The position numbers and the translations under genes are program-made. The notes beneath the pieces are model-generated. The model was not told the origin of the DNA. It did not search any database and saw only the letters and a program-made list of their open reading frames with translations. A stretch of 41,576 nucleotides of DNA from positions 1-41,576 of the forward strand of contig CAIOOA010000182.1 of NCBI GenBank assembly GCA_903859815.1, read 5' to 3'. Shown in pieces: positions 2,810 through 16,890 of the stretch. Position 1 is the stretch's first letter. Every line of letters begins with the position of its first letter. Source of the DNA: an uncultured Methylococcaceae bacterium (GTDB taxonomy: Bacteria > Pseudomonadota > Gammaproteobacteria > Methylococcales > Methylococcaceae).

Positions 2810-4191
<1,382 letters not shown>

Positions 4192-13473: not shown

Positions 13474-14109
13474 ATGAATGCCGACAAACGCCGTCAAATT
13501 TTCAAACGCCTTGCCGAAGCCATCCCAGAACCCACCACCGAACTGAATTATTCCAGCCCGTTCGAGTTATTAGTCGCCGTGGTATTATCAGCCCAAGCTA
13601 CAGACAAAGGCGTCAACAAGGCGACAGCCAAATTATTTCCAGTCGCCAACACCCCACGCGCACTGATTGAATTGGGCGAAGACGGTTTGAAGGAGTATGT
13701 CAAAACCATCGGATTATTTAACAGCAAGGCAAAAAACATCATCGAACTCAGCCGCTTGCTACTGGAAAGGCACGGAGGCGAAGTACCTAATACACGCGAA
13801 GCATTGGAAGCCCTGCCAGGGGTTGGCCGCAAAACCGCCAATGTCATCCTCAACACTGCTTTTGGGCAGCACACCATAGCCGTGGACACCCACATTTTTC
13901 GCGTGTCCAACCGTACCGGGATTGCGCAGGGAAAAAATGTATTGGAAGTGGAAAAAAAGCTGGAACGTCATGTTCCCAAAGAATTTAAGAAAGATGCCCA
14001 TCACCTACTGATCCTGCATGGGCGCTACACTTGCATCGCCCGCAAGCCGCGTTGCGATAGTTGCGTGATTGCCGATTTGTGTGAATTTCCAAGCAAAACA
14101 GAATTATAG
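13474..14109 (+). CDS. nth: Endonuclease III (Nth)
   Basis: A 211-residue base-excision repair glycosylase/AP lyase acting on oxidised pyrimidines. The helix-hairpin-helix reads LEALPGVGRKTANVILN with the catalytic lysine in GRKTA, and the catalytic aspartate is in IAVDTHIFRVSNRTG. The 4Fe-4S cluster ligands are visible at the C-terminus as C-x6-C-x2-C-x5-C (CIARKPRCDSCVIADLC). Length is standard. It is followed by 300 bp without a gene that contains the long inverted repeat at 14121-14215. Confidence 0.97.
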   Translation: MNADKRRQIFKRLAEAIPEPTTELNYSSPFELLVAVVLSAQATDKGVNKATAKLFPVANTPRALIELGEDGLKEYVKTIGLFNSKAKNIIELSRLLLERHGGEVPNTREALEALPGVGRKTANVILNTAFGQHTIAVDTHIFRVSNRTGIAQGKNVLEVEKKLERHVPKEFKKDAHHLLILHGRYTCIARKPRCDSCVIADLCEFPSKTEL

Positions 14110-14120
14110 TCAATATGACT

Positions 14121-14215
14121 GGAGCGTCAAAGCTTGCTTTGACAGGCGAAGCAAGCTTCGCTTATTCATACTTATGTCAAAGTAAGCCTCATGTCAAAGC
14201 AAGCTTTGACGCTCC
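14121..14215. repeat. Inverted pair of TCAAAGC-TT-GCTTTGA palindromic repeats
   Basis: Two 23-bp copies of the GGAGCGTCAAAGCTTGCTTT element (14121-14143 and 14193-14215) face each other as a perfect inverted repeat. Inside lies a variant palindrome GCGAAGCAAGCTTCGC at 14145-14160. Related copies occur at 16711-16890 and 34395-34458. The rest of 14110-14410 shows no gene. Confidence 0.85.
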
Positions 14216-14410
14216 TAAACCTTGACGATCCAGCGTGACATGGTTTGTCTGTTCTTGCGTTGCACCTACACTAGCACTAAACAAATTCGCTCCATTATGT
14301 GAGAATAACCCTGTTGGAGCTATCATCGCACCTTTGCCCAATTCAATGGTCAAATGGCGTGTGTGAAAGCACAAAGCCCCAAAAATCAATAATCACCTAA
14401 GAGGACACTC

Positions 14411-14785
14411 ATGAAAAAAGACAAGAAATCCTTGGCCGCCTTTGTTGGCGCGAGCATCGTCACCTCCCTGTCCGCCGGAGTCGTCAACGCAGCGGAAAAT
14501 CCTTTCGTGCTGAAAGACATGGCCCAAGGCTACATGCAAGTCGCAGAAGTCGTCCCTTTTTCGGGTCAGGCCGCTGCACCAGCCGCTAAACCTGCAGAAG
14601 CAGCCAAGCCCGCCGCAGAAATGAAATGCGGCGCGGAAATGATGAAGGGCAACCCGGAAATGAAATGCGGCGCTTCCATGATGAAAGGCATGGATGCACC
14701 TGCGCCTGCTGAAGCAGCGAAAGCCGTAGAAAAAAAATGTGCTGGCATGAAAATGGAAAAGCCAGCCACCCCCGAAACCAAGTAA
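14411..14785 (+). CDS. HvfA/bufferin-type secreted precursor peptide with three EMKCG-like Cys motifs
   Basis: A 124-residue putative RiPP precursor. An atypically long signal peptide ([19 protein letters not shown]) is cleaved near VVNAA|ENPF. The leader then has the family segment [17 protein letters not shown]. The core is Ala/Pro-rich with three cysteines: C73 in [13 protein letters not shown]86 in [12 protein letters not shown] and C110 in [11 protein letters not shown]. HvfA peptides carry EGKCG repeats whose cysteines are modified by a DUF692 oxidase (established for the family). Here the motif is EMKCG with added methionines, which may widen metal, especially copper, binding (inference). 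An AGAGGA ribosome-binding site precedes the ATG. It is followed by an attenuator-like hairpin and the DUF692 and DUF2063 genes. Confidence 0.85.
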
Positions 14786-14794
14786 GCTCCTGCC

Positions 14795-14828
14795 AATCAG
14801 GCCGGGCCCGTCCGGCCTGATTGTTTTT
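14795..14828 (+). terminator. Rho-independent terminator or attenuator between precursor and oxidase genes
   Basis: An 11-bp perfect stem AATCAGGCCGG / CCGGCCTGATT with a short loop, followed by GTTTTT. It starts 9 bp after the precursor stop and ends 10 bp before the oxidase ATG. As drawn it should end most transcripts after the precursor while letting some read through. Confidence 0.88.
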
Positions 14829-14837
14829 CCAACAACA

Positions 14838-15713
14838 ATGAACCCACCTAACTCCCTATTACAAGGCTCCGGGCTTGGCCTTAGGCGCGATTTCGCCGAA
14901 GAAGTCCTGAATAATCCTCCCTTCGTCGATTTTTACGAAGTGGCCCCGGAAAATTGGATGCGCTTTGGCGGAAGGCTAGGCAAACAATTTCGCGCCCTAA
15001 CCGAACGCTTCCCTTTTGTCTGCCATGGCCTGTCGCTATCCTTAGGTGGCCCTACTCCGCTGGATGAGGATTTTCTGCTCGAATTAAAATCCTTCCTCCA
15101 CGATCATCAAATCGCCTTATATAGCGAGCATTTGAGCTTTTGCGGTGACGACGGCTTGCTCTACGACCTGATGCCGATTCCATTCACTAGTGAAGCCGTG
15201 GATTATGTCGCAGCCCGCATACGCCGAGTGCAAGAACTATTGGAACAACGGATTGCCATCGAAAATGTCTCCTACTATGCTGCACCGGGCAAGGAAATGG
15301 AAGAAATCGACTTCCTCAATGCCGTGTTGCACGAAGCCGATTGCGGATTGTTGATAGACATCAATAATATTCACGTCAATAGTGTGAATCATGGCTATGA
15401 TGCCGAAGAATTTTTGAATGCCATACCCGGTGAACGCATCGTGTATGCCCATATTGCCGGTCATTATGTCGAAGCGCCGGATTTCCTCGTAGACACCCAT
15501 GGAGCCACGATTATCGACCCGGTATGGAAACTACTCGATACCGCTTATCAAAAGTTTGGCGTATTCCCTACTTTATTGGAGCGGGATTTTAATATCCCAC
15601 CCCTCGCCGAATTGATGAAGGAAGTGGAAACCATAAGGATGATTCAAAATGCTCGATTAAGCTCAAACGCCAAAATAAATCGATTGAACTTTGACTCCCT
15701 GCTTACGGGCTAA
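14838..15713 (+). CDS. DUF692 multinuclear non-heme iron oxidase (HvfB/BufB/MbnB type)
   Basis: A 291-residue TIM-barrel enzyme of the MNIO family that oxidatively rearranges cysteines of precursor peptides (oxazolone/thioamide in methanobactin, thiooxazole in bufferins). The metal ligands of the family are visible: H63 ([11 protein letters not shown]), E97-H98 (YSEHLSF), E142-N143 (IENVSYY), D174-N177-H179 ([16 protein letters not shown]), H205 (YAHIAGH), D219-H221 (VDTHG) and E249-D250 (LLERDFNIP). It lies between the precursor gene and the DUF2063 gene. The ATG at 14838 comes directly after the hairpin, with no good ribosome-binding site visible. Its presumed substrate is the protein at 14411-14785. 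Confidence 0.93.
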
Positions 15714-15747
15714 CCTATTGACACATTACATGACATTGTTTTTTTAC

Positions 15748-15785
15748 TCCCCTCCCCCTCACAGGGGGAGGGGCCGGGGGAGAGG
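15748..15785. repeat. C/G-rich palindromic intergenic repeat
   Basis: CCCCTCCCCCTCACAGGGGG followed by AGGGG forms a strong hairpin between the oxidase and DUF2063 genes (218 bp apart). The T-run lies before, not after, the stem on the plus strand, so I read it as a dispersed repeat related to 5812-5848 rather than a terminator. Confidence 0.55.
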
Positions 15786-15931
15786 ATCTTGGTTTGGTTG
15801 AAATGGCGACAAACCCATTGCAATCAACCCGATTCCCCTCTACTAAATCCCTTCCCCCAATAGAAAAAGGACTTGTAAAAATAAATTAGCCACTTGTAGG
15901 GGATAAAGACAATTATCTGATTGAAACCGCC

Positions 15932-16684
15932 ATGACAAAACCAAACTTCCAACAAACCCAATATGCTTTCGCCGCCTACATCCGCGACCCGCTGCATAAC
16001 CCCGCTCCGCTTGATGTCAAACCGGAACGGGTCGCCATGTACCGTGAATTGTTCTTCAATAACATCAACAATTTCATCAGCACCAGCTTCCCGGTATTAA
16101 AAACGATACTGGACAAATCCCATTGGCTGGAATTGACGCAAGATTTTTTCGCCCGTCATCGCAGCACTACGCCTTTTTTCTCCGACTTCGCCGAGGAATT
16201 CTTGAAATACTTGCGAGAAGAACGCAATAACCCGCAAGACCCGCCTTTTTTACTAGAACTGGCGCATTATGAATGGGTGGAATTGGCTTTGGAACTTGCC
16301 GAAGGCGAAGCGCCATTACCGAGTTTGGCGCTAGAACAAAACCCATTGGACTGCATGATTACCCTGTCCGATGTGGCTTGGCCCTTGGCTTATCATTTTC
16401 CAGTGCAGCGGATTAGCCGCGACTATCAACCCACCGAACCGCCTCCCGAACCGACTTTATTAGTGGTTTATCGTGACCGCGAAGACAAGGTGCATTTTGT
16501 CGAGCTTAACCCCCCAACCTACCGATTATTGCAATTATTGGAAACCGAAGGCAGACTACCAGCCAAGCAATGCCTATTACAAATCGCAACAGAAATGGGT
16601 ACGAGCAATACCGATTCCATCTTGACGTTTGGCGCGGAAATCATTCGGGATTTGGCAAACAGAGGTGTGCTGGGTGAGGGATAA
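15932..16684 (+). CDS. DUF2063 partner protein (HvfC/BufC type)
   Basis: A 250-residue protein with the DUF2063 N-terminal helix bundle: FAAYIRDPL, then PERVAMYRELFFNNINNFIS and FPVLKTILD. A winged-helix-like C-terminal half follows (YRLLQLLETEGRLPAKQCLL). In methanobactin and bufferin systems the cognate partner binds the leader of the precursor and activates the DUF692 oxidase. It therefore completes an A-B-C cluster with 14411-14785 and 14838-15713. No DoxX-type HvfD gene is present here, so the set is a minimal one. The 218-bp gap before it is unusual for this operon type. Confidence 0.9.
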   Translation: MTKPNFQQTQYAFAAYIRDPLHNPAPLDVKPERVAMYRELFFNNINNFISTSFPVLKTILDKSHWLELTQDFFARHRSTTPFFSDFAEEFLKYLREERNNPQDPPFLLELAHYEWVELALELAEGEAPLPSLALEQNPLDCMITLSDVAWPLAYHFPVQRISRDYQPTEPPPEPTLLVVYRDREDKVHFVELNPPTYRLLQLLETEGRLPAKQCLLQIATEMGTSNTDSILTFGAEIIRDLANRGVLGEG

Positions 16685-16710: not shown

Positions 16711-16890
16711 GGAGCATCAAAGCTTGCTTTGACTAGAGATTGGAGCGTCAAAGCTTGCTTTGACTTAGAGATTGGAGCATCAAAGCTTGCTTTGACTAGA
16801 GATTGGAGCGTCAAAGCTTGCTTTGACTTAGAGATTGGAGCATCAAAGCTTGCTTTGACTAGAGATTGGAGCGTCAAAGCTTGCTTTGAC
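16711..16890. repeat. Six-unit tandem array of a 31/32-bp palindromic repeat
   Basis: Units begin GGAGC at 16711, 16742, 16774, 16805, 16837 and 16868 (spacing 31, 32, 31, 32, 31). Each contains TCAAAGC-TT-GCTTTGA. Units alternate GGAGCATC and GGAGCGTC and alternate CTAGAG and CTTAGAG spacers, so the real repeat is a 63-bp dimer in three copies. The minus-strand reading frame across it is a by-product. Confidence 0.93.

Follow-up and report, generated by a model that had tools for sequence, protein, structure and literature searches.

The closest described relatives of the locus analysed here are clusters in which a multinuclear non-haem iron oxidase (MNIO) and a DUF2063 partner accompany a secreted precursor. 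As described in PMC12668002, the fon cluster of Fontimonas thermophila, the source of fontiphorin, contains a Lys-Cys precursor, an MNIO and a DUF2063 partner without DoxX, and seven sites in EGKCG repeats are modified. The HvfABC/oxazolin system of Haemophilus influenzae is reported to have a Sec-signal precursor, enzymes of the HvfB and HvfC families and a DoxX-like HvfX in the operon; its HvfA carries three AEGKCGEGKCG motifs with six cysteines (PMC13419390). The Buf_EGKCG/oxazolin group of PMC12452194 combines a signal-peptide precursor, an MNIO and DUF2063 with DoxX in various combinations. For published relatives, 5-thiooxazoles (-4 Da per Cys), absorbance at ~305 nm and copper binding have been reported (PMC12668002, PMC13419390, PMC12538549). 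According to the authors of PMC12668002, the characterised MNIO-PME1 products all carry 5-thiooxazoles and generally bind copper.

We analysed a stretch of 41,576 nucleotides (the window) from an uncultured Methylococcaceae bacterium. Its cluster (Table 1) resembles the fon cluster in gene content, in the Lys-Cys precursor, in the signature residues of the oxidase and in having no DoxX, and it shares both enzyme families and, as judged by eye, a signal-peptide precursor with the HvfABC and Buf_EGKCG systems. It differs in the precursor core, where the EGKCG repeats are replaced by three isolated sites (EMKCG, EMKCG and EKKCA) among many methionines, without a tandem pair of the H. influenzae kind. 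The ORF coordinates and the order precursor, oxidase, partner agreed with the first-pass annotation, and the variant motif that it had pointed out was read directly at Cys73, Cys86 and Cys110. By analogy with characterised relatives, the three genes probably make a secreted copper-buffering peptide through cysteine oxidation. Rather than a novel kind of system, the cluster appears to be a methionine-rich variant, specific to this lineage, of a peptide class already known.

Table 1. Positions of the cluster genes, precursor elements and neighbouring features in the window.
Feature	Position	Strand	Basis or remark
nth-like gene (endonuclease III, named from sequence)	13474..14109	+	outside the system; upstream syntenic marker
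Putative secreted precursor gene, HvfA-type, 124 aa	14411..14785	+	ORF list; below NF050137 cut-off
Precursor signal peptide	aa 1-27/28		by eye
Precursor conserved stretch NPFxxKDLxxGYxQVAE	aa 30-46
Precursor core	Cys73, Cys86, Cys110		with nearby Met
Site 1, Cys73, EMKCG	14618..14650	+	35-row alignment
Site 2, Cys86, EMKCG	14657..14689	+	35-row alignment
Site 3, Cys110, EKKCA	14729..14761	+	35-row alignment
Hairpin and T-tract between precursor and oxidase genes, possible attenuator/terminator	14794..14828	+	13-pair stem
HvfB-type MNIO, 291 aa	14838..15713	+	PF05114, NF003818
218-bp gap	15714..15931	+	unmatched in genus loci compared; adjoins changed HvfB C-terminus
HvfC-type partner, DUF2063 + NGO1945_C, 250 aa	15932..16684	+	PF09836, PF22106, NF050145

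The HvfABC-type assignment of the first-pass annotation was borne out by the two enzymes. In profile searches the oxidase scored 352.6 bits against PF05114 and passed the HvfB equivalog NF003818 (430.6 bits, cut-off 360). The partner scored 81 bits against PF09836 and 105.6 bits against PF22106, and passed the HvfC equivalog NF050145 (301 bits, cut-off 142). Each was the only match found in the host genome (G000), for PF05114 and NF050145, respectively. Their best solved relatives were 3BWW for the oxidase and 3DEE for the partner, which PMC12668002 assigns to the captophorin class. Two other peptide systems were rejected. For bufferin 1, the BufB score was 273.4 against a cut-off of 310, and the precursor had no Pfam match at E<=1, so no DUF2282; for methanobactin, the MbnB score was 44.8 against a cut-off of 325.

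The metal ligands of the oxidase were all present, as had been claimed. The iron ligands of VcMbnB named in PMC8888699 correspond in the phmmer alignment with 7dz9 to H98, E142, D174, N177, H205, D219, H221 and E248, and the catalytic base to D250. We infer that 7dz9 carries the VcMbnB numbering, because these nine named residues all fall on the right letter. H63, which lies outside this alignment, was assigned to VcMbnB His55 by conservation. These ten residues were invariant in 72 of 72 aligned MNIOs of the order (59 HvfB-type and 13 BufB1-like; the 72-row tree contains only MNIO sequences longer than 200 aa). BufB1-like is our label for one clade of that tree, in which two neighbouring precursors were tested and were DUF2282, while the rest were judged by eye or none was visible. 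The Arg-Arg/Asp-Phe substrate signature of Lys-Cys oxidases, reported for FonB as Arg15, Arg16 and Phe250 (PMC12668002), was also found; R16, R17 and F251 were matched to these residues by motif and near-identical numbering, FonB itself being unaligned. R16 and R17 occur in 59/59 and F251 in 57/59 HvfB-type oxidases of the order; the counts in the BufB1-like oxidases are 10/13, 0/13 and 0/13, respectively. In the tree, the window oxidase falls among HvfB enzymes of EGKCG precursors. The oxidases of methionine-rich clusters require four changes on this tree, and two of them (L045 and L046) sit near other families, so they form a grade and not a proven clade.

The precursor begins with what was read by eye as a Sec signal (KKDKK, a hydrophobic stretch and VNA/AENPF). 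When it was checked against the HvfA and BufA families, as the first-pass annotation had proposed, it matched the HvfA domain model NF050137 below the cut-off (9.6 versus 19.5 bits), NF050188 (HvfA) gave no listing at E<=1, and DUF2282 was unmatched. With E<=1 as the limit in place of the cut-offs, 19 aligned precursors gave 18 matches to the HvfA domain model and 14 to the full HvfA model; above the cut-off, the domain was matched in 44 of 61 genomes. Homologues of the precursor were found in 51 of these 61 genomes, including 37/37 of the host's own family and 14/24 others of the order. The sister genome G002 differs from the window precursor by 5 synonymous and 0 nonsynonymous codon differences over 125 codons. 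The precursor is therefore not a chance reading frame. A phage family was also ruled out (0 families in PHROGs).

The leader and the cysteines are strongly conserved in a 35-row alignment, from which L051 (uncertain start, no leader motif) and three single-cysteine rows were excluded. Met84 is kept in 33/35, Met113 in 33/35, Met78 in 31/35 and Met90 in 24/35 rows, counts that are not independent because the rows are related and the window and L036 are identical. At site 1 the methionine of position 2 is not fixed, and EMKCG, EAKCG, EGKCG and ESKCG all occur within the window's genus. EMKCG is not a one-off oddity, as it was found in 21 of 39 family precursors (a table without the second precursor-like matches G004:C437, G011:C1:2453986, G026:C32 and G033:C5). 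With 30 of the family's 130 cysteine sites, it is one ahead of EGKCA (29). Outside the family it was found in 3/17 precursors from other families of the order, in 0/8 DoxX-type precursors and in 0/40 more distant precursors, which were taken from the top of a match list covering 109 of 369 genomes. In two distant precursors (L140 and L144), the EGKCG repeats are interrupted by DKDGDG, which resembles an EF-hand; EF-hand fusions of this precursor class are already described in PMC12452194.

The methionine-rich core noted earlier was confirmed, with 11.6% Met from NPF onward (11/95). The median over the same region was 9.6% in the 39 family rows versus 4.8% in the best 40 distant rows (Mann-Whitney p 7e-8, the rows being treated as independent despite kinship). 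Methionine makes up 2.1% of HvfB and 1.6% of HvfC. Richness of this degree is not unique to the family, since the distant L123 (12.7%) and L147 (13.5%) and several f8 rows (>11%) reach similar values. The distant HvfA-type precursors L123, L138, L146 and L147 are all Met-rich (10.9-13.5%), one of them with CGAGMKMK repeats, which suggests that methionine enrichment arose repeatedly in the HvfA-type class. Methionines near cysteines summed to 252 over the 39 rows, versus 152 expected from shuffles; the excess reached p<0.05 in 25 rows, the window included (p 0.015), and not in the other 14. Pro/Ala-rich tails may inflate part of this signal.

We then compared the loci around the precursor. The order precursor-oxidase-partner was found at 33 of 39 own-family loci. 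L047 reads precursor-oxidase up to the contig end, L036 has precursor and oxidase side by side with the partner 5.5 kb away, and in one genus four loci (L041, L042, L056 and L062) have a precursor with no oxidase in the stretch. An nth homologue lies upstream of the precursor at 10/39 own-family loci, including 7/7 of the window's genus. In the sister family f6, the precursors behind nth (5/5 loci) are of the canonical EGKCG-repeat type. They have 7-13 cysteines each, EGKCG or EAKCG accounts for 41 of the 47 in total, and their Met content is about 1-3%. One close C-x4-C pair, for example EMVCGEGKCG, is left in 22/39 own-family rows, and in genus g10 (6 rows) a five-residue alignment gap converts EMxCGEGKCG to EMKCG. 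The best reading is that the window system is a captophorin that has lost its tandem EGKCG pairs, with conserved methionines near the sites.

Within the same order, a further group of loci (L075, L076, L081, L086, L090, L092, L093 and L104) has a similar leader, an HvfB-type oxidase and, where the stretch reaches that far, an HvfC homologue. These loci differ from the window in their EGGCS/EGNCG motifs, in a separate MNIO clade (100/100) and in DoxX, which lies alongside in 7 of the 8, the eighth being cut by the contig end. The absence of a DoxX membrane partner from the window cluster held up, as PF07681, the only DoxX-type family searched, had no match in G000 (99.06% complete). Among 55 own-family DoxX places, the shortest distance to a methionine-rich cluster on a shared contig is 49.6 kb; many contigs are short, so at some loci a partner may lie just past the contig end. 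The missing DoxX is not remarkable, because none lies near these clusters in the family and the fon cluster also has none. One own-family locus (L049) is the only one with a membrane protein right after HvfC, a GDT1-type divalent cation/proton antiporter at 2950-3615 (PF01169, 151.6 bits).

Taken together, the cluster is likely of the captophorin (HvfABC) type and makes an exported 5-thiooxazole buffer for Cu(I); modification, export and copper binding are here carried over from characterised relatives. In this mechanism, HvfC would recognise the Sec signal and the NPFxxKDLxxGYxQVAE stretch of the precursor in the cytoplasm. HvfB would oxidise Cys73, Cys86 and Cys110 each to a 5-thiooxazole, with a loss of 4 Da per site and about 12 Da in total. 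The modified peptide would then be exported, cleaved and act as a periplasmic Cu(I) buffer, with the thiooxazole thiols as ligands, probably assisted by the conserved methionines close by. Before modification, the peptide would have a computed monoisotopic mass of 10,011.78 Da with cleavage following residue 27, or 9,940.74 Da with cleavage following residue 28. An excess of precursor mRNA over enzyme mRNA may be maintained by the hairpin that follows the precursor gene. For the methionines and the attenuator, we infer these roles. Several observations weaken the captophorin reading: the precursor fails the HvfA cut-off, four family loci have a precursor without a nearby oxidase, and proteomics of Microbulbifer, whether copper was added or not, did not detect the homologue (PMC12538549).

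The host family consists of probable methane oxidisers with a high copper demand. Of 12 family genomes, 8 have PF02461, G000 not being one of them, and 11 have PF04744; both are Pfam families of the copper-dependent methane/ammonia monooxygenase. The matches in G000 are limited to two short ends of PF04744, one of which lies at the start of a contig. For this particular host, methane oxidation is therefore deduced from kinship and these fragments. Methane/ammonia monooxygenase is a source of copper demand, and methionine ligands favour Cu(I). Copper, which the first-pass annotation had considered together with other thiophilic metals, is a plausible metal for the peptide by analogy, as the characterised thiooxazole peptides generally bind it. 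It is unlikely that the same modification serves another thiophilic metal or oxidative stress instead. Metal specificity is not readable from sequence, and PMC12668002 ties the clusters to metal and oxidative stress; the copper binding of the class in that same source, the preference of methionine for Cu(I) and the copper-dependent monooxygenase families of the host's relatives speak against this alternative.

The isolated sites raise the question of modification itself. According to PMC12668002, FonBC accepted a second residue other than Pro and a fifth residue that was Gly or Ala, rules that cover all three window sites, and left a FonA peptide with one repeat unmodified. The window has three spaced KC[GA] sites, 13 and 24 residues apart and none in tandem, and this isolation, set against the one-repeat result, also weakens the captophorin reading. 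L042, L056 and L063, all of one genus, are methionine-rich paralogues with a single cysteine (EMKCGANMMK, EMKCGAQMMK); two of them have no adjoining oxidase, and L063 lies next to its own HvfB and HvfC. These observations would fit partial or different modification at the EMKCG/EKKCA sites, for example with methionine oxidation or crosslinks. We consider this improbable, because the oxidase has the standard signature and groups with the HvfB enzymes of EGKCG precursors, and the published position rules are satisfied. The FonBC data suggest that EMKCG and EKKCA motifs are processable, so no new chemistry is needed. Consistently, the oxidase passes the HvfB equivalog cut-off and bears the substrate residues of the Lys-Cys group. 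Of the earlier interpretation, the anatomy, the variant motif and the methionine-rich core stood, and the proposed new modification pattern found no support. It is very improbable that the precursor stays unmodified, as a Cys/Met protein for metal binding or redox reactions, and that the oxidase acts on another substrate: the oxidase-free loci and the sub-cut-off HvfA score would fit this alternative, whereas the kept gene order, the strongly conserved leader and cysteines, and the one MNIO and one HvfC of G000, both in this cluster, stand against it.

Returning to the captophorin reading, a more specific version for the methane oxidisers of the family is only tentative. Isolated thiooxazoles without a tandem repeat might combine with conserved methionine thioethers into mixed Cu(I) sites, and in one genus the precursor might have shrunk to single-cysteine peptides (EMKCGAxMMK). 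The captophorin class has been defined only recently, and the natural substrates of this family, with isolated sites or a single cysteine, offer a direct test of tandem-repeat dependence. They bear on how captophorin oxidases select cysteines, and the mismatch between isolated sites and the FonBC one-repeat result is the most useful question raised. Besides methanobactin, the cluster suggests a second metal peptide produced by an MNIO, in all searched genomes of a probable methane-oxidiser family.

The literature on methanotroph DUF692 and copper, covered as titles and the beginnings of abstracts, did not describe this cluster, although supplementary tables outside that scope may list its sequences. 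Literature searches found nothing on a Methylomonas thiooxazole or on methionine-rich MNIO copper peptides, and 'EMKCG' returned only unrelated medical texts. In a paper that seemed to connect Methylobacter with DUF692, the organism proved to be Methylobacterium. The window precursor may fall among the ungrouped small cysteine precursors of PMC12452194. Outside the families it names, that source describes hundreds of short ORFs with a signal peptide and 1 to 18 cysteines preceding MNIO genes, so its lists may already include sequences of this type.

The hairpin between the precursor and oxidase genes was the sole one prominent by folding energy (z -4.77 versus 200 shuffles). A similar stem was seen by eye in 7/7 genus loci, with a weak T-tract in some. 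A terminator scan showed no excess over the region (5 found versus 4.1 expected). At 14241-14410 of the window, upstream of the precursor gene, lie patches including GTGTGAGAAT and ATCGCACCTTTGCC...GGTCAA that are shared by most of the seven genus loci and may be a promoter or regulator site. Alignment of the seven upstream regions gave shared patches and no nameable regulator site. The junction between HvfB and HvfC is altered in both sister genomes, and the HvfB C-termini differ in both. In G002 (L094, G002:C269) 5,493 bp separate the two genes, with ORFs named by eye as radical-SAM-like, WecG-like, deacetylase-like and glycosyltransferase-like. Arrays of REP-like near-palindromes flank the window cluster at 14120-14210 and 16715-16890. 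Their 19-mer GTCAAAGCAAGCTTTGACG was found at 147 forward and 149 reverse places of the genome, and its reversed control at none.
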